Shown here: positions 5,722 through 36,549 of the stretch, piece after piece
How positions within the stretch are numbered: the first letter of the stretch is position 1
Layout of the letters: each line of letters begins with the position of its first letter
Made by a program: the position numbers and the translations under genes
Assembly (NCBI GenBank): GCA_017460915.1
Contig: JAFUAA010000041.1
Coordinates: 1 to 56,232, forward strand
Length of the DNA: 56,232 bases
Source: Bacteroidales bacterium
GTDB lineage: Bacteria; Bacteroidota; Bacteroidia; Bacteroidales; F082
Reading direction: 5' to 3'
Notes under the pieces: generated by a model
Seen by the model: the letters and a program-made list of their open reading frames with translations, nothing else
What the model was told of the DNA's origin: nothing
The model's database searches: none

Positions 5722-6455
5722 AGCTTATACTCCACTTCTTCCAAAAACAACGCATGGGCAGGTACCGACGTCCCAGCTTCGCAACGGTCTTTCCGCTCGA
5801 TGACGGCACGGAACTCCTCCTGGCTCATGCGCCCCTTCCCCACTTCCAACAACGTGCCGACGATGGCACGCACCATATTGCGCAAGAAGCGGTCGGCCTT
5901 GATGCGAAACACCAGCAGGCCATCCTGCTCAAACCAACGCGCCTCCATGATTTTGCAGTTATTGGTCTTCACTTGGGTATGGACTTTTGAAAAACTCGTA
6001 AAATCCTCATATTCAAAGAGAAGATTAGCGGTCTCCTGCATTTTCTCCACGTTCAGGTCGCCATAAAGGAAGTAAGCGTCGGCGGTGTGGAACGGATTCT
6101 TCGTCCGCGTGATGTAATAATGATACGTGCGCGAAACGGCATCGAAACGGGCATGAAATTCGGGCGCGACCTGCCAAATCCGAAATATCGCGATATCCAT
6201 GGGCAGAAATGCATTCATCTGATGGACAAGCCTTTGCGTATCCTGGATTTCTTTCTCGAAATCGAAATGAGCGTAGTAGTTTCGCGCATGAACACCAGTG
6301 TCGGTACGGCCACAACCTGTGATTGAGACCGTTTGACCCAGTTTCAGGCTGAGGCATTTCTCAACCGTCTCCTGAACGCTTGGGGCATCAGGCTGAATCT
6401 GATAGCCGTTATAGCGGCTGCCGTTATAGGCCATATGGATGAAATAACGCGGCAT
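5694..6455 (-). CDS. truA: tRNA pseudouridine synthase A
   Basis: 253 residues from the ATG at 6455 (MPRYFIHMAYNGSRYNG). TruA converts uridines 38-40 of the tRNA anticodon arm to pseudouridine. The catalytic aspartate is Asp52 in GRTDTGVHA; DISVF/DIAIF-like and SRTYHYYI motifs and the C-terminal KADRFLRNMVRAIVGTLLEVG are also present. The upstream frame to 6509 covers the promoter and is not coding. The last residues (LRQAQGP) are encoded by a dispersed repeat, so the end is not ancestral. Divergent from aat. Confidence 0.93.
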   Translation of the reverse strand: MPRYFIHMAYNGSRYNGYQIQPDAPSVQETVEKCLSLKLGQTVSITGCGRTDTGVHARNYYAHFDFEKEIQDTQRLVHQMNAFLPMDIAIFRIWQVAPEFHARFDAVSRTYHYYITRTKNPFHTADAYFLYGDLNVEKMQETANLLFEYEDFTSFSKVHTQVKTNNCKIMEARWFEQDGLLVFRIKADRFLRNMVRAIVGTLLEVGKGRMSQEEFRAVIERKDRCEAGTSVPAHALFLEEVEYKLALRQAQGP

Positions 6456-8705: not shown

Positions 8706-9359
8706 TCACAAACTATTCCCATACTTATCCAGCCAAGCCTGTGCTTGTTCACAGTCAGGACAATGGGAACGCAGAAAGGTTTGGAAACGCACCGTGTGCT
8801 TCATGATGATGGTGTGGCATAATTCATGGATGATGACATAGTCGATCACAAATTCTGGAGCCTTGACGATGCGCCAGTTGATGGAAATGTTCTTTTCTTT
8901 TGAGCAATTGCCCCATTTCCGTTTCTGGCTTCTGATATAGAGTTTGTCATAAGGCAACAGCAAGGCTTCCGACAGGGCGTCGATGCGATTGGAAATGTGT
9001 TTTTTTGCCACCGATTTCAGCCATTTTTCCTGCACACTGACATTCAGCAAGTCGCGTTTTGCCTGAATGGTCTTGCTCTCGTGGTTTACCACCACTTTGT
9101 TTTGATACTTAGACGAATAGAAATAGGCATACCGGTTCCCGAAAAGCAAAATCTCATTTCGTCGTAGCTTGATTTGCGTTTTTTTCGCGAAAAACGTCCG
9201 CTTTGACTCAATCCATTGCTTTTTCTTTTCCAGCAAGCTCTCAATTTGTTCGTCAGTGAAAGAAAGTGGGACAAACAACTGCACCGCACCGTCTTCACAA
9301 ACACGGAGACGGGCATTTTTCACATCGCGGCGGGTTACGGTATAGTTTTCGGGCAGCAT
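8706..9359 (-). CDS. YgjP/SprT-like zinc metallopeptidase (DUF45)
   Basis: 217 residues. The C-terminal half has WGNCSKEKNISINWRIVKAP and the zinc motif HELCH followed by a distal MKH, as in the YgjP family. These are commonly encoded at the 3' end of type I restriction operons, which is exactly its position here; its role there is unknown. The start at 9359 lies 1 bp after the preceding stop, so it is co-transcribed with the hsd remnants. It is intact although the restriction genes are not. Confidence 0.8.
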   Translation of the reverse strand: MLPENYTVTRRDVKNARLRVCEDGAVQLFVPLSFTDEQIESLLEKKKQWIESKRTFFAKKTQIKLRRNEILLFGNRYAYFYSSKYQNKVVVNHESKTIQAKRDLLNVSVQEKWLKSVAKKHISNRIDALSEALLLPYDKLYIRSQKRKWGNCSKEKNISINWRIVKAPEFVIDYVIIHELCHTIIMKHTVRFQTFLRSHCPDCEQAQAWLDKYGNSL

Positions 9360-27752: not shown

Positions 27753-29261
27753 TCACTTCGCCCGCAGTGCCCCATACGCCTTCCCCAAATGCTCCACAAT
27801 ATCCCCAGCAATCAAGGCCTCCTGCCCCATCTCCTCGGTGGCAAGGTCGCCGGCCAAGCCGTGGAGATAGACGCCCAAGACGGCGGCCTCCTCGGGCGAA
27901 TAGCGTTGCGCCAAGAGCGAGAGGATGATGCCCGTCAGCACATCGCCACTGCCCGCCGTGGCCATGCCAGGATTGCCCGTCGTGTTGAAGAAACAAGTGC
28001 CGTTGGGCATCGTGATGGAGGTGTGCGCGCCTTTCAAGACGATGATAATGTTGTTCTTCACCGAGAGTTCGCGCTGTTTTTCGAGGCGTTCAAACGAGGT
28101 CGTGGTCTTCCCAACGAGGCGCTCAAACTCCTTGGAATGGGGCGTCAGGATGGTCTTGGCGGGCAGGAAGGCCAGCCAGATCGGGTTTTCGGAGAGGATG
28201 TTCAGGGCATCGGCATCCATCACGAGGGGCACCTGCACCTCTTGAATGAGGCGCTTCAGGGCGCGTTGCGTCTCGTCGGCCTTGCCCAAACCTGGGCCCA
28301 CGCCCACGGCGGAATAGGCATCCAAGCCCTTGAACATCGTGAAGCAAGTCTCCGACTCGTCGCCGTCAATCATCGCCTCGGGAATGGCGGTCTGCAAAGG
28401 CAGTTGCGCCATCTTGGGCAAGTGGACACTCAGCAAGCCCACGCCAGTGCGCAGACAGGCTTTTGCGCCGAGCAAAGCCGCACCTGTCTTGCCTTCGGAA
28501 CCGGCAATGAGCAGGGCGTGACCGTAAGTGCCTTTGTGGGAATATTTTGTGCGCGTGTGCAAAATCGGCTTCACCATCGCCTTGACGGTGAGCAGGTTGC
28601 GCGTCTCCACTTCCTCAATATAACGCGGGTGCAAGCCGATGTCCAAAATCTCGAAGCGGCCCACATACGGGTCGTTTTCGGGGAAGAGAAACGCCAGCTT
28701 CGGGAACTGGAACGAGAGCGTGTAGTCGGCCTTGAAGATGAAGCCCAAGGCGCTAGGCTGGTCGGCGAAAAGACCCGAAGGCACATCGATGGCCACGCGA
28801 ATAGCGCGGCTTTGGTTGAGGAAGGCAATCAGGTCGGCGGTCATGCCTTGCGGCGGACGGTTGAGGCCCGAGCCGAAGATGGCATCGACCACCACATCGT
28901 CGGGGCCGACATTCGGGAAGTCGTCTTCGCCCAAGATGTCGAACATCGGAACCTTGGTCTCGTTCACGAGGCGGTAGTAGTTCACCTCGCAGTCGTGGCT
29001 CATGCGGTCGCTGTGGCGCACCATAAACACCTGCGGGACCATCTCCTGCTCGTTGAGCATCCTTGCCACGGCGAGACCGTCGCCCCCGTTGTTGCCCATA
29101 CCACAGAAGATCTTGATGGTCTTCTCGCGCGGCGTGCGGCGATAGAGCCACTCAAAGACCTTTCGGACCGCCCGTTCCATCAAGTCGATGGACTCGATGG
29201 GTTCGTTTTCTATCGTGTATTTGTCCGCTTCGCGGATTTGATTGACTGATAATACTTTCAT
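27753..29261 (-). CDS. nnr: Bifunctional NAD(P)H-hydrate epimerase / ADP-dependent dehydratase
   Basis: 502 residues. The N-terminal ~215 form the YjeF_N epimerase (CGMGNNGGDGLAVAR, VVDAIFGSGLNRPP); the rest is the ribokinase-like dehydratase with KGTYGHALLIAGSEGKTGAA and the signature ATAGSGDVLTG. Together they repair hydrated NADH and NADPH. The first ~15 codons occur a second time, diverged, at 30911-30954. Confidence 0.93.
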   Translation of the reverse strand: MKVLSVNQIREADKYTIENEPIESIDLMERAVRKVFEWLYRRTPREKTIKIFCGMGNNGGDGLAVARMLNEQEMVPQVFMVRHSDRMSHDCEVNYYRLVNETKVPMFDILGEDDFPNVGPDDVVVDAIFGSGLNRPPQGMTADLIAFLNQSRAIRVAIDVPSGLFADQPSALGFIFKADYTLSFQFPKLAFLFPENDPYVGRFEILDIGLHPRYIEEVETRNLLTVKAMVKPILHTRTKYSHKGTYGHALLIAGSEGKTGAALLGAKACLRTGVGLLSVHLPKMAQLPLQTAIPEAMIDGDESETCFTMFKGLDAYSAVGVGPGLGKADETQRALKRLIQEVQVPLVMDADALNILSENPIWLAFLPAKTILTPHSKEFERLVGKTTTSFERLEKQRELSVKNNIIIVLKGAHTSITMPNGTCFFNTTGNPGMATAGSGDVLTGIILSLLAQRYSPEEAAVLGVYLHGLAGDLATEEMGQEALIAGDIVEHLGKAYGALRAK

Positions 29262-29522: not shown

Positions 29523-29606
29523 TGGAAAAAAGTTGCAAAAACGGCGTTGAAATACTGGAAAAAAGTTGTAATTTTGCATCGAAATAAGTGGAAAAAAGTT
29601 GCAAAA
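29523..29606 (+). promoter_or_regulatory. Three direct repeats with 33-bp period on the ATPase-1 promoter
   Basis: TGGAAAAAAGTTG starts at 29523, 29556 and 29589, exactly 33 bp apart. Copies 1 and 3 continue GCAAAA, copy 2 continues TAATT. The -33 GTTG (29546-29549) and -7 TAATTTTG (29569-29576), 19 bp apart, place the second copy inside the core promoter and the third between the start point and the ATG at 29606. This geometry is that of an operator, most simply for autoregulation. Confidence 0.75.
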
Positions 29607-30904
29607 TGTTACATCGTAAAGCCATAAAAAACCTTGAAAACTGGTATGAGTCAACGCATAAGAAAGCCGCACTAGTAACGGGAGCGCGACAGGTCGGAAA
29701 AACAACTGCCATCAGGGAATTTGCGCGTCAACATTACCAGCATTTCGTGGAAGTCAATTTCGTGAAACGGCCTGTTGCACGACAAGCCTTTGACGGTGAC
29801 CTTGACACCAGTACCATCGTTTCCAACCTCTCGGCCATGGGTTTCGGACCTTTCGTCGAAGGAGAAACCTTGGTCTTTTTCGACGAAATCCAAGAATGCC
29901 CCAACGCACGCACCGCCATCAAGTTTTTGGTCGAAGAGCATCGCTATGACTTTGTCGAATCAGGCTCGTTGTTAGGCATCAATTACAAGGAAGTGCCTTC
30001 CTACCCTGTCGGTTTTGAGCAAGAATACACAATGTTTCCACTCGATTTTGAGGAGTTCCTATGGGCAAAAGGGATTGGGGACGACACCATCCAACTCATG
30101 CGGCATTCCTATGAAACCCATCAATCTTTGCCCGAGTTCATCCACAACCAATTTTTCAAGTATTTTCGCGAATTTCTAGTGGTTGGTGGAATGCCCGAAG
30201 TGGTTCAGACTTACATCGACAATGAGGATTTTCGCTTGACCACAGAGGTGCAGCGTTCCATCCTGACCACCTATCGTGCCGACATCTCGAAATATGCGGG
30301 CAAGGCGCAAACCCTCGTCAAACGAATTTTCGACGCCATCCCGTCAGAATTGGGCAAACAAGACAAGCGTTTTATCCTTGCCGACATTGAACATGGTGCC
30401 TCACGCAGAAAATACGAAGCCCCAACCCAATGGCTCATTGATGCAGGTATCGCCTACTATTCCTTCAACACTTCCGCATTTGAACTGCCCTTTGAAGCCA
30501 CTGAAAACCGTAAACTTTATAAATTGTACATGGTCGACACTGGAGTGCTCAGTCGAATGCTACTGAAAGGACTGCAATTCAATGTGATGCACGGCGACAT
30601 TGACCTCAACGAAGGCGCCCTGACCGAAAATTTTGTGGCCTGTGCCTTGTCGGGAAAAGGAATTCCCCTGCACTATTTTGACAGAAAAAGCAAGCAGGAA
30701 TTGGATTTCATTATCGAAGAGGATAACGCCATCTCCATCGTTGAAGTCAAATCGGGCGACAATTTCACCCGACACGCCTCGCTCGATGCAGCCATCAAGT
30801 CATTCCCTGAAAAAATCGGAAGATCCATCGTCTTTTGCAAGTCCAATGTCTTTGAAAAAGACAGGGTTCTTTATCTTCCGCTTTATATGGCTACGATGCT
30901 ATAG
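29606..30904 (+). CDS. AAA+ ATPase with C-terminal DUF4143 nuclease-like domain (ATPase 1)
   Basis: 432 residues from ATG 29606 (an upstream in-frame ATG at 29588 lies within the repeats). The N-terminal AAA domain has Walker A GARQVGKTT (26-34) and Walker B VFFDEIQ (Asp93-Glu94). A winged-helix region is expected in the middle. The C-terminal DUF4143 part has ELDF (Asp367) and IVEVKSG (Glu380, Lys382), the pattern of PD-(D/E)xK nuclease folds. This COG1373 family is abundant in Bacteroidales and archaea, often in many copies; its role is not established. Ends in TAG. The repeat array on its promoter and the nnr fragment behind it suggest a transferred cassette. Confidence 0.88.
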   Translation: MLHRKAIKNLENWYESTHKKAALVTGARQVGKTTAIREFARQHYQHFVEVNFVKRPVARQAFDGDLDTSTIVSNLSAMGFGPFVEGETLVFFDEIQECPNARTAIKFLVEEHRYDFVESGSLLGINYKEVPSYPVGFEQEYTMFPLDFEEFLWAKGIGDDTIQLMRHSYETHQSLPEFIHNQFFKYFREFLVVGGMPEVVQTYIDNEDFRLTTEVQRSILTTYRADISKYAGKAQTLVKRIFDAIPSELGKQDKRFILADIEHGASRRKYEAPTQWLIDAGIAYYSFNTSAFELPFEATENRKLYKLYMVDTGVLSRMLLKGLQFNVMHGDIDLNEGALTENFVACALSGKGIPLHYFDRKSKQELDFIIEEDNAISIVEVKSGDNFTRHASLDAAIKSFPEKIGRSIVFCKSNVFEKDRVLYLPLYMATML

Positions 30905-30910
30905 AAAAGC

Positions 30911-30954
30911 AATTTGTCCGCTTCGCGGATTTGTTCGACTGAGAGGATTTTCAT
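30911..30954 (-). pseudogene. Duplicate fragment of the nnr 5' end
   Basis: Read leftward from 30954 it encodes MKILSVEQIREADK, closely matching the start of the NnrE-NnrD protein (MKVLSVNQIREADK). The 44 bp agree with 29218-29261 at 37 positions. The rest of the gene is absent. It lies just behind ATPase 1, so the zinc-ribbon/ATPase segment is bracketed by two nnr starts in direct orientation. Confidence 0.75.
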
Positions 30955-30977
30955 ATTGATTTCAAGATTTTATTATT

Positions 30978-32533: not shown

Positions 32534-32561
32534 TGTTCGTTTCTTTTTTGAGTTGCTTTTT

Positions 32562-32897
32562 TTAAGTCACTTGCGCCATCCATTGTTTGAAAGGTTCTGC
32601 TTTAGGCGATGGGATGGATTGGATGAGACGAAAAAGTTGCTCTGTATCAGCGATATACGTATTTCTCATTTTACCATCAGGGGCGAGCATTTTCAAACCG
32701 TGACAAATTGTCACGGTTTCATTTCCTTCTTCTTTTAGTCTTTGTTTCAGCTTACGCCAATATGCAGTTGGATCAACGCTATCTGTCAAAACCGCAATTG
32801 CATCGACCACCGAAAAGTACCATTTCTCGACCTCGTCATCCCAAATGGCGCGGACTTTTCTCTGTTCAAACAGTTGAATTTTATTGTGCTGTGTCAT
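32562..32897 (-). pseudogene. Truncated BRO-N antirepressor / DinD-like protein
   Basis: 111 residues that match only the Bro-N domain: VRAIWDDEVEKWYFSVVDAIAVLTDS, YWRKLKQRL, VTICHGLKMLAPDGK, and IQSIPSPKAEPFKQWMAQV. Family members usually continue with over 150 more residues, but here the frame stops right after QV. Bro-N binds DNA and appears in phage antirepressors and DNA-damage-inducible proteins. Its own promoter is visible (minus strand TAACTTTG at about 32907-32914, TTTG 21 bp upstream in the end of the ATPase gene). A stand-alone Bro-N product is possible. Confidence 0.7.
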
Positions 32898-32928
32898 AAA
32901 ACTTATTTTGCTGCAAAGTTACAAAAAA

Positions 32929-34134
32929 TCAATACAAAAACCCAAACAGCCAAAGCGGAATCTTGTTTCCTCTACCAAGCTCCACATCGTCGATGGCCAA
33001 ATAGCTGTCCGGCGAGTCCTTGATTTGCTCGAAACGCTTGTCGGCGCCGCCCACTTCGAAGGTGTATTTCACGTCAACGAGGAAATCGCCTTGCTTCGGC
33101 GCGTTGAGTTCATGGTTGTGACAAGTCTGATTATAGAAATAGGTTTCTCTCACCGTTCCAATCTCGGGATGAGAATTGAAAGCGTACATCAGATTGGAGT
33201 TGTCCCAAAACAACTTCTCCGGTGCTGACATCTGTTTGAAGGCCTTGGCACGGGTCTTCAGTTGTCCCAGCAAGGCTCCTCTTTCCAACAAATCCAACAA
33301 CTTGAGGCCCTGCTCGCGGCTGGTCTCCAATTGGCGATACAATTCTTCCATCTTCGGCGTGAACGGCACTTGCAAAGCAATGATACCCAGCAACTTCTTC
33401 AGTTTCCGAACCGTGACGTACTCCACTTTCTCCACGGCCGGCATATCTAATTCTATAGTCTGCTGCGCCACTTCCATCAGTTTGGCGTGGAAGCCGTCCA
33501 AGTCCTCCTTATAAAACGGATAGTAACCGTGGCGACAATAACGCTCAAAATGCGGCAAGATGCGCATTTTGTCGGCAATGTCGGAGGCAATCTGCACATG
33601 ACGGGTCAGTATGTCGTCCAACGATAGCTTCTCATGGTGCAGAATGTCCTCAAACATCAGGTATTCACGGAACGAGAGACCGTTCATCGTGTGCATGGCC
33701 ACGCGGCGCGAAAGGTCGCCTTCGCCCTTGGACAATTTCAGCATCGAACTGACCGTAAACACCACGTTCATCGTCGGATAGTCGTCATAGATGTTCTTAA
33801 TGTAGGTCTGCCAATGCTCGTATTTATGTACCTCGTCAAGGAAAAGGTGCGTGCCGCCGTGCGTGTAATGGTATTCCACCAAGTCGGCAAGAGTGTTGTT
33901 GGCAAACCACATGTTGTCCAACGACACATACAACGCCTTGCTGTCATCGGCACCAAAAGCTTCCTTGATGCGCTGCTTGAGCAATGTGGACTTTCCAACA
34001 CCTTTCGGCCCTTTGATGCCGATGATACGCGCATTCCAATTGATGCTGTGCAGCAGTTCCCTTTGGAACTTCATGCTCACCTGCTTGACGCTTCGTTGTG
34101 AGTTTCTATAGAGTATGTCCAGACTTTCATTCAT
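32929..34134 (-). CDS. AAA+ ATPase, COG1373-like (ATPase 2)
   Basis: 401 residues. Walker A GPKGVGKST (42-50), Walker B HLFLDEVH (Asp100-Glu101). The C-terminus has GDFLVDVKYTFEVGG, the equivalent of the DUF4143 nuclease-like core, but with GG where the E-x-K lysine is expected, so catalysis there is doubtful. It is a diverged relative of ATPase 1 (different subfamily). A strong Shine-Dalgarno (AAAGGAGG) and minus-strand -7 box TAATTTTG (34160-34167) precede it, and the repeat array starts 6 bp behind that box. Confidence 0.87.
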   Translation of the reverse strand: MNESLDILYRNSQRSVKQVSMKFQRELLHSINWNARIIGIKGPKGVGKSTLLKQRIKEAFGADDSKALYVSLDNMWFANNTLADLVEYHYTHGGTHLFLDEVHKYEHWQTYIKNIYDDYPTMNVVFTVSSMLKLSKGEGDLSRRVAMHTMNGLSFREYLMFEDILHHEKLSLDDILTRHVQIASDIADKMRILPHFERYCRHGYYPFYKEDLDGFHAKLMEVAQQTIELDMPAVEKVEYVTVRKLKKLLGIIALQVPFTPKMEELYRQLETSREQGLKLLDLLERGALLGQLKTRAKAFKQMSAPEKLFWDNSNLMYAFNSHPEIGTVRETYFYNQTCHNHELNAPKQGDFLVDVKYTFEVGGADKRFEQIKDSPDSYLAIDDVELGRGNKIPLWLFGFLY

Positions 34135-34172
34135 AATTTCCTCCTTTGTTTTGCCGCTGCAAAATTACAAAA

Positions 34173-34352
34173 CAATATTCAAATATTGATAATTATGCAG
34201 AAAAAGAATATTTAGATATTGAAAATTTATCAGATAATCACTATTTAAATATTGATTTTTAATATAATAATAATATTCAATTATTGATATATTTGATAAA
34301 AAACAATATCTGAGTATTGAAAAATCAAAGAAAAACAATATTTAAATATTGA
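34173..34352. promoter_or_regulatory. Six palindromic 17-bp repeats with 32-33 bp period upstream of ATPase 2
   Basis: Units near CAATATTTAAATATTGA start at 34173, 34206, 34239, 34271, 34304 and 34336 (steps 33, 33, 32, 33, 32). Each is a near-palindrome; the 15-16 bp between them is AT-rich and not conserved. The first unit overlaps the -33 region of the ATPase-2 promoter; the last ends 16 bp before the tex -33 box. About three helical turns per unit would place all sites on one DNA face, so an oligomer could bind along it. Too short a repeat and no unique spacer length for CRISPR. Confidence 0.85.
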
Positions 34353-34367
34353 AATAACAAAATCACC

Positions 34368-34398
34368 TTTGTCTTCAAGGGAAAAACACTTATTTTTG
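34368..34398 (+). promoter_or_regulatory. Promoter of tex
   Basis: TTTG (34368-34371), 19-bp spacer, TATTTTTG (34391-34398): a full match to the Bacteroidota consensus, 18 bp before the tex ATG. Confidence 0.65.
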
Positions 34399-34416
34399 CG
34401 CCAAAATTTGAACATA

Positions 34417-36549
<2,133 letters not shown>

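Follow-up and report, generated by a model that had tools for sequence, protein, structure and literature searches.

The locus considered here raises the question of what a repeat array with a fixed spacing does on the promoter of the gene that follows it. It lies in a 56,232-nucleotide contig (JAFUAA010000041.1, positions 1 to 56,232 of the forward strand; hereafter the window) of the Bacteroidales bacterium assembly GCA_017460915.1 (lineage F082; hereafter the source genome). In this window, three copies of a 13-bp word precede the gene of an ATPase that belongs to the defence candidate PDC-S01 (ATPase 1), and an unrelated word with the same period precedes the gene of a second ATPase (ATPase 2). 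From a comparison of this locus with its paralogs and relatives we propose autoregulation through a private operator, in which each ATPase would bind its own array and control its own promoter. We assign a probability of about 0.72 to this reading.

The ATPase 1 promoter and protein

Three exact copies of TGGAAAAAAGTTG were found on the forward strand at positions 29523–29535, 29556–29568 and 29589–29601, 33 bp apart and just where an earlier note on this DNA had placed them. Tandem Repeats Finder reports this array (29523–29606) with a period of 33 and a score of 98. Copy 2 lies directly 5′ of, and abuts, a TAATTTTG box (29569–29576, forward strand), which we take to be a Bacteroidota-type −7 promoter box, and copy 3 is located in the 5′ leader, 5 bases ahead of the ATG start codon (29606–29608). 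The simplest reading of an array that spans a promoter is an operator. A scan for sigma-70-type promoters gave no site on the array, as expected for a promoter of the Bacteroidota type. An element acting at the RNA level was rejected, because no Rfam match reached gathering scores between positions 29200 and 31000 and because the units flank the promoter box on both sides and are direct, not inverted. The earlier note had proposed a search for further copies in the chromosome. In the whole assembly (2.98 Mb in 79 contigs) the exact 13-mer occurs three times, all of them in this array, and the word is thus private to the ATPase 1 promoter by exact match. The closest relative of ATPase 1 in the named genome collection, and the sole close one, is its ortholog L034 from the uncultured Bacteroidia bacterium RUG14786 (89% identity), which retains all three copies of the word in unchanged positions.

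ATPase 1 (432 amino acids; 29606–30904, forward strand) carries the Pfam domains AAA_14 and DUF4143, besides which only related P-loop families matched. The PADLOC profile PDC-S01 covers the protein in full length (residues 1–432; E = 9.8e-151), and PDC-S01 profiles matched all 40 members of the ATPase 1-family alignment at E ≤ 1e-30. In the passages that deal with it, PDC-S01 is described as a fusion of an ATPase with a PD-(D/E)XK member, the architecture also seen here, and ranks fourth by frequency among prokaryotic defences, with most PDC candidates still awaiting validation (PMC12988326). The corresponding part of a survey of rumen genomes counts 10,358 PDC-S01 loci; PDC-S01 is the most frequent individual locus of that survey (PMC13356809). 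These passages of the two papers give abundance and architecture without a promoter array, in which the genes described here differ. Judged by its family, ATPase 1 is a representative of a very abundant defence candidate with a presumed antiviral role.

A sequence search for solved homologs of ATPase 1 returned no more than P-loop stretches, in midasin and HslU, and NCBIfam gave no match above cut-off among the six ATPases scanned. The AlphaFold2 model of ATPase 1, based on a 23-sequence alignment, had a mean predicted local distance difference test (pLDDT) score of 88.4. Using Foldseek, residues 1–320 matched the archaeal Walker ATPases 2qen and 2fna as well as NLR and CED-4 cores, followed by Orc1/Cdc6; Avs proteins and 8bob (title: maltose system) were also among the rows. 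The domain order of STAND NTPases, with a P-loop AAA+ core followed by a helical domain and a winged helix, was confirmed. According to this model, the core of ATPase 1 is STAND-like with a winged helix (residues 231–310; 30296–30535, forward strand), and signal-triggered, nucleotide-dependent oligomerisation is putative. Most fold-search rows span residues 1–347. The C-terminal domain (approximately residues 325–432; 30578–30901, forward strand) is predicted to be PD-(D/E)XK nuclease-like from the model and conserved residues. E365, E380 and K382 are invariant and D367 is present in at least 90% of the 40 aligned members, which bears out the nuclease-like residues named in the earlier note (Asp367, Glu380 and Lys382). 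All four residues are invariant in a second set of 23 sequences, 21 of which are outside the first set, and the Walker residues are conserved across the family alignments. This conservation is consistent with a predicted nuclease activity of ATPase 1.

Arrays across the family and in control regions

Arrays were scored over all lags from 14 to 70 in the 200 bp upstream of each gene and compared with 60 dinucleotide shuffles of the same region; an array was called when the best lag was 31–35 or 62–70 and all 60 shuffles were beaten. The region upstream of ATPase 1 beat 60 of 60 shuffles. In the source genome, a search with ATPase 1 gave 35 matches at E ≤ 10, with fragments counted, and 41 DUF4143 domains are present. 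The set of full-length paralogs from this genome excludes five loci: L009, whose upstream region is identical to that of L008; L026, a partial gene; L030 and L033, which are distant; and L006, which is broken. The congeneric set consists of loci fetched from 29 genomes, a subset of the matches there, from which 4 of 88 loci with short upstream regions were dropped (L044, L065, L116 and L117); 4 of 30 ATPase-2 loci were dropped as well. Arrays precede 18 of the 20 full-length paralogs in the source genome and 73 of the 84 congeneric PDC-S01-type genes (91 of 104 in total), as well as 22 of 26 ATPase-2-type genes, two of them from the source genome. Hence the periods show the preference for about 33 bp that the earlier note had expected, and are not scattered.

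Inspection of the upstream regions revealed that a different short word precedes nearly every full-length paralog, for example AAATCTCAAAAAGGTGTA, TTATCCCTTGAAAAAGTGTA or TTCCCTCATAAAAATG. In a search allowing one mismatch, 13 of 18 source-genome words did not match any other array of that genome and 5 did. A match to TAnnTTTG was located no more than 130 bp from the ATG in 95 of 100 arrays from the genus (scored without a chance control). Among these 95 arrays with such a −7-like box, the core promoter is overlapped by a unit in 80, and the leader contains one in 42. By eye, ATPase-2-type words are palindromic and ATPase-1-type words mostly are not. This applies also to the window, where ATPase 2 (401 amino acids; 32929–34134, reverse strand), an AAA_14 protein and distant PDC-S01 relative according to Pfam and PADLOC, is preceded by palindromic CAATATTTAAATATTG-like units (34169–34352, reverse strand; Tandem Repeats Finder score 152). 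This word is unrelated to TGGAAAAAAGTTG but has the same period of 33, in agreement with the earlier note. Among 64 related pairs with at least 70% protein identity, the words were 81.6% identical compared with 67.3% for spacers and leader, and were the more conserved part in 55 pairs.

The control set comprised 339 upstream regions, which were taken from the window and from 20 stretches of 20 kb each, ATPase 1 and ATPase 2 included. It replaced an earlier set of 92 regions, which held genes divergent from the ATPases and sharing their array. All shuffles were beaten by 33 of the 339 regions, at scattered lags, and 8 qualified as arrays. Four of these are arrays of the ATPase family itself (those of ATPase 1 and ATPase 2, that of the gene which diverges from the ATPase 2 array, and one orphan array), and the other four (z 3.3–5.2) have no visible link to it. 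The latter and the scattered lags are what an origin by chance or from low-complexity, A-rich DNA has in its favour. Such an origin has a negligible probability and is refuted by the shuffles, the controls and the family counts, with 91 of 104 PDC-S01-type genes bearing an array, and by the exact words kept in orthologs. Among the controls, 25 have z ≥ 4; 7 of these are AAA_14 or ATPase_2 ATPases, namely ATPase 1, ATPase 2 and five with other geometries, among which the Pfam match of L130 6616–7050 falls below its cut-off.

Outside the genus, 32 relatives were found in IMG/VR and 31 were analysed; 20 beat all shuffles, 19 of them at a lag of 33–34 (several are near-duplicates). One of these loci, a 62% relative (L144), has TGGAAAAAAGTTG once in exact form plus two variants with the register kept; its array is not among the 20, as 4 of 60 shuffles reach its score. 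Plasmids yielded 61 matching records, 11 of which were picked for diversity and analysed over 250 bp upstream of the annotated start. Nine of the 11 beat all shuffles and 8 did so at 32–33 or double that lag, in six phyla (Collinsella, Bacteroides, Fusobacterium, Vibrio, Acinetobacter, Criblamydia, Agathobacter and Segatella), and the lag of a Vescimonas plasmid relative peaked at 42. Among 30 loci of mostly shorter DUF4143 proteins from other Bacteroidota families, 28 were testable and 10 beat the shuffles; the lag was 32 in four of them, 22 in three, and 14, 23 or 34 in one each. By eye, a single palindrome takes the place of repeats in several of the remaining loci. Overall, related shorter DUF4143 or ATPase_2-type genes show spacings of 14–15, 22–23 or 52 bp, or single palindromes, so that the 33-bp rule is mainly one of the long PDC-S01-type and the ATPase-2 subfamilies. 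The principle suggested by the earlier note, a cognate repeat of fixed spacing for each ATPase, is supported by the array counts and by the word–protein co-variation described below, but the spacing is not shared by all related ATPases. The spacings of 22 and 33 bp would both correspond to about whole helical turns.

Several other arrangements were observed. The loci L016 and L111–L114 are similar to each other and lack an array; by eye, an inverted pair, AAAACTCT...AGAGTTTT, surrounds their promoter. In the arrays of L097 and L118 the A-rich core is in reverse orientation (CACTTTTTAGTC), which suggests that the DNA reader can be turned round. The broken locus L006 (C22 33261–34130; 52% identity to ATPase 1 over residues 143–431, one internal stop) still has three exact copies of the CTGCAAAAAGTTACTA unit upstream, together with a degenerate one. 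A long palindrome (TTTCACAAGTCTGTGTAACACAAAT plus complement) lies upstream of an ATPase_2 gene in L141 (~9150–9220), and promoter repeats also precede ATPase_2-type genes in L130, L142 and L127 (10293–11711). The last of these is a source-genome member of PDC-S27 (ATPase_2-DUF234); it resembles the PDC-S01-type genes in having upstream promoter repeats and differs in that these are inverted GGGCGGAATCGA units with a best lag of 52. Private operators may thus extend to the ATPase_2 family.

Co-variation of the repeat word with the winged helix

Repeat units were extracted from 145 loci, of which 125 were kept at a score of at least 25 and 103 remained below 90% protein identity. Across these 103 pairs of protein and word, word similarity was correlated with protein identity (Mantel r = 0.274; maximum of 500 permutations, 0.091). 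When the protein was divided into domains, the weight of the winged helix was 0.268, compared with 0.004 for the AAA, 0.039 for the helical and 0.056 for the nuclease domain. The helical domain is the least conserved in most identity bands and yet has the weakest correlation, which indicates that the signal does not reflect mere variability. The best windows were residues 273–284 (partial r = 0.215) and 265–276 (0.192), which correspond to the predicted recognition helix (permuted maximum 0.134, derived on a coarser window grid); residues 265–284, which follow the repeat word most closely, are encoded at 30398–30457.

Within clades linked at 50% identity, the weight was 0.451 for the winged helix and 0.163 for the AAA domain, and none of 1000 within-clade permutations reached 0.451. 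Four alternative scoring settings agreed with this result. Among pairs with 55–70% identity, the recognition helix was more similar in the 60 pairs with similar words (0.629) than in the 147 pairs with dissimilar words (0.481), whereas the AAA and nuclease domains did not differ in identity by word similarity. In the 14 pairs with the highest contrast, 13 of which come from one group, the AAA and nuclease domains are 60–74% and the winged helices 28–40% identical. These pairs indicate that the winged-helix reader can diverge faster than the rest of the protein.

Binding of the arrays by another host regulator would be in line with an A-rich core near GAAAAAGTGT that is common to many Bacteroidota words. 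The co-variation of the words with the winged helix of the ATPase itself and the 13 source-genome words that recur, within one mismatch, in no other array of that genome argue against this explanation, and we regard it as highly improbable.

A proposed private operator and its alternatives

Taken together, the near-privacy of the word, its co-variation with the winged helix and the STAND-like fold make autoregulation the most economical reading. Each PDC-S01-type gene would be a self-contained unit. Its protein would combine a STAND-like ATPase with a DNA-reading winged helix and, at the C-terminus, a PD-(D/E)XK nuclease, and the private array upstream, which spans the core promoter and leader, would consist of two to seven copies of the word read by the protein's own winged helix. 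The protein is probably a nucleotide-controlled oligomer, whose protomers would sit on one helix face every three turns (~33 bp). By occupying its own array, this oligomer would hold down rather than activate its own transcription, and such repression would keep a potentially toxic nuclease scarce. Private words could allow about 20 paralogs to operate in one genome without cross-regulation.

Several observations weigh against this reading. No clear array was found for 2 of the 20 source-genome genes, 11 of the 84 congeneric genes (L048, L054, L058, L062, L084, L099, L111–L114 and L123), or, within 250 bp upstream, the Ruminococcus albus and Runella plasmid relatives, and 12 of the 31 IMG/VR loci had no significant lag of 33–34. 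Privacy of the words is incomplete, with 0–5 one-mismatch matches per source-genome word elsewhere in the 456 kb sampled, and the 64 pairs in which words and spacers were compared are not independent. Co-variation of protein and word, which the earlier note had named as a check, was present overall and within clades, but the Mantel r and the overall correlations are only modest, and the largest clade (17 members) has no winged-helix correlation (rho = −0.17). In a clade of 12 members the nuclease domain correlates better than the winged helix, nuclease windows at residues 357–372 also pass the permuted maximum (0.147–0.154), and the 25 best single columns include 8 from the nuclease domain, compared with 13 from the winged helix. 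Within the latter, residues ~250–270 of ATPase 1 were modelled with low confidence; folded alone, the winged helix reached a pLDDT of 57.5 and was left out of the fold search.

The orphan array also belongs among these points, as perfect words that persist without a gene are not required by plain autoregulation. It consists of three perfect TGGAAAAATGACAAAA units at 33 bp in contig C22 (~135.9 kb; L127 ~5880–5965), beside a Pkinase-AAA fusion gene, and no ATPase gene was seen at this locus. At the syntenic place in genome G018, both an array and an ATPase gene are present. The units of the two arrays are identical at 48 of 48 positions and the spacers at 19 of 34 (Fisher p = 1.9e-7), and the source-genome paralog nearest to the G018 ATPase shares 38% identity with it (within the alignment). 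An exact search found this array pattern only in the source genome and G018 among 30 genomes. Either a recent event removed the gene, or the array has kept a function of some kind, perhaps for the divergent kinase. The perfect orphan words would also suit an array that gives an immune sensor a tether at rest and an address of its own; this sensor would be a STAND nuclease that stays inactive on its array until phage events strip or replicate the array DNA and so release or activate it. The full-length PDC-S01 match, the conserved Walker and nuclease residues, and the NLR, CED-4 and Avs proteins among the fold-search rows are consistent with such a sensor. However, the position of the arrays on promoters is already explained by autoregulation alone, and TGGAAAAAAGTTG pairs with 19–21 bases between them had no exact match in IMG/VR; we consider the tether unlikely. 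The self-mark for defence or mobility for which the earlier note had left room would be compatible with the conserved nuclease residues and with the defence candidacy of the protein, but an operator is the simpler reading. In a related, speculative view, to which we give a low probability, PDC-S01 proteins would form many immune units, insulated from one another and each recognising itself, and the array would serve as an operator and at the same time as the platform on which the sensor rests. The winged helix would then diversify rapidly with the array, and disturbance of the array DNA by phage-directed transcription, replication or DNA loss would be sensed.

The surroundings of the two window arrays bear on a further alternative, a selfish or mobile unit whose nuclease uses the array as homing or transposition address. 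The blastn block common to the window and L034 starts at repeat copy 1 (29523), and a 47-bp near-copy of the 5′ start of the upstream yjeF-type gene lies just 3′ of ATPase 1 (30912–30958, forward strand; 95.7% identity to L034 1310–1356); with blastn, no such near-copy was found 3′ of the ATPase gene in L034. The stretch 32535–34428 of the window, which contains ATPase 2, its array and a Bro-N gene, is not represented at the corresponding place in L034 and is a presence/absence polymorphism between the window and RUG14786. Copy numbers are patchy, too, with 23 matches in the source genome versus 0–22 in 29 congeners (E 1e-15; several genomes are incomplete). While mobility could account for these features, the window and L034 orthologs occupy the same genomic place, and the orphan array lies in synteny and has not been cut, as gene loss would leave it, which renders a mobile unit very unlikely.

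The proposed private operator has partial precedents. MalT boxes are direct repeats, and STAND regulators on direct repeats are thus already known in kind, but MalT regulates other genes and combines a TPR sensor with a C-terminal LuxR-type HTH, without a nuclease. In ATPase 1, which shares the STAND ATPase with MalT and has 8bob among its Foldseek rows, the predicted reader is an internal winged helix and the target would be its own gene; Pfam identified neither a LuxR-type HTH nor a TPR sensor in this protein. Archaeal Orc1/Cdc6 proteins have paralog-specific repeats near their gene, and they share an AAA+ core and a winged helix with ATPase 1, whose fold matches include their DNA-bound structures. 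They differ from the ATPase 1 family in that no replication role is indicated for the latter, which has about 20 copies per chromosome and the array on the promoter. For the archaeal Walker-type ATPases 2qen and 2fna (SSO1545), the aligned range ends before the nuclease domain of ATPase 1. The combination seen here, a defence candidate with a nuclease in which most paralogs follow a gene-private array of locked spacing, would be new by the literature searched. Multimerisation and activation of targets by MalT-type STAND ATPases are described in the pertinent parts of PMC4381067 and PMC6468293. Promoter arrays like those reported here were not described in the open literature searched; subscription papers and bioRxiv were outside the scope of this search, and an earlier description is possible.

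PDC-S01 is among the commonest defence candidates, and in the passages on it the published mechanism goes no further than its domains (PMC12988326, PMC13356809). The arrays supply a defined DNA target for each paralog together with a swappable predicted reading domain, and the fixed 33-bp geometry limits how an oligomer could sit on the DNA. In addition, the 103 non-redundant protein–word pairs represent a natural data set for the recognition code of winged helices.
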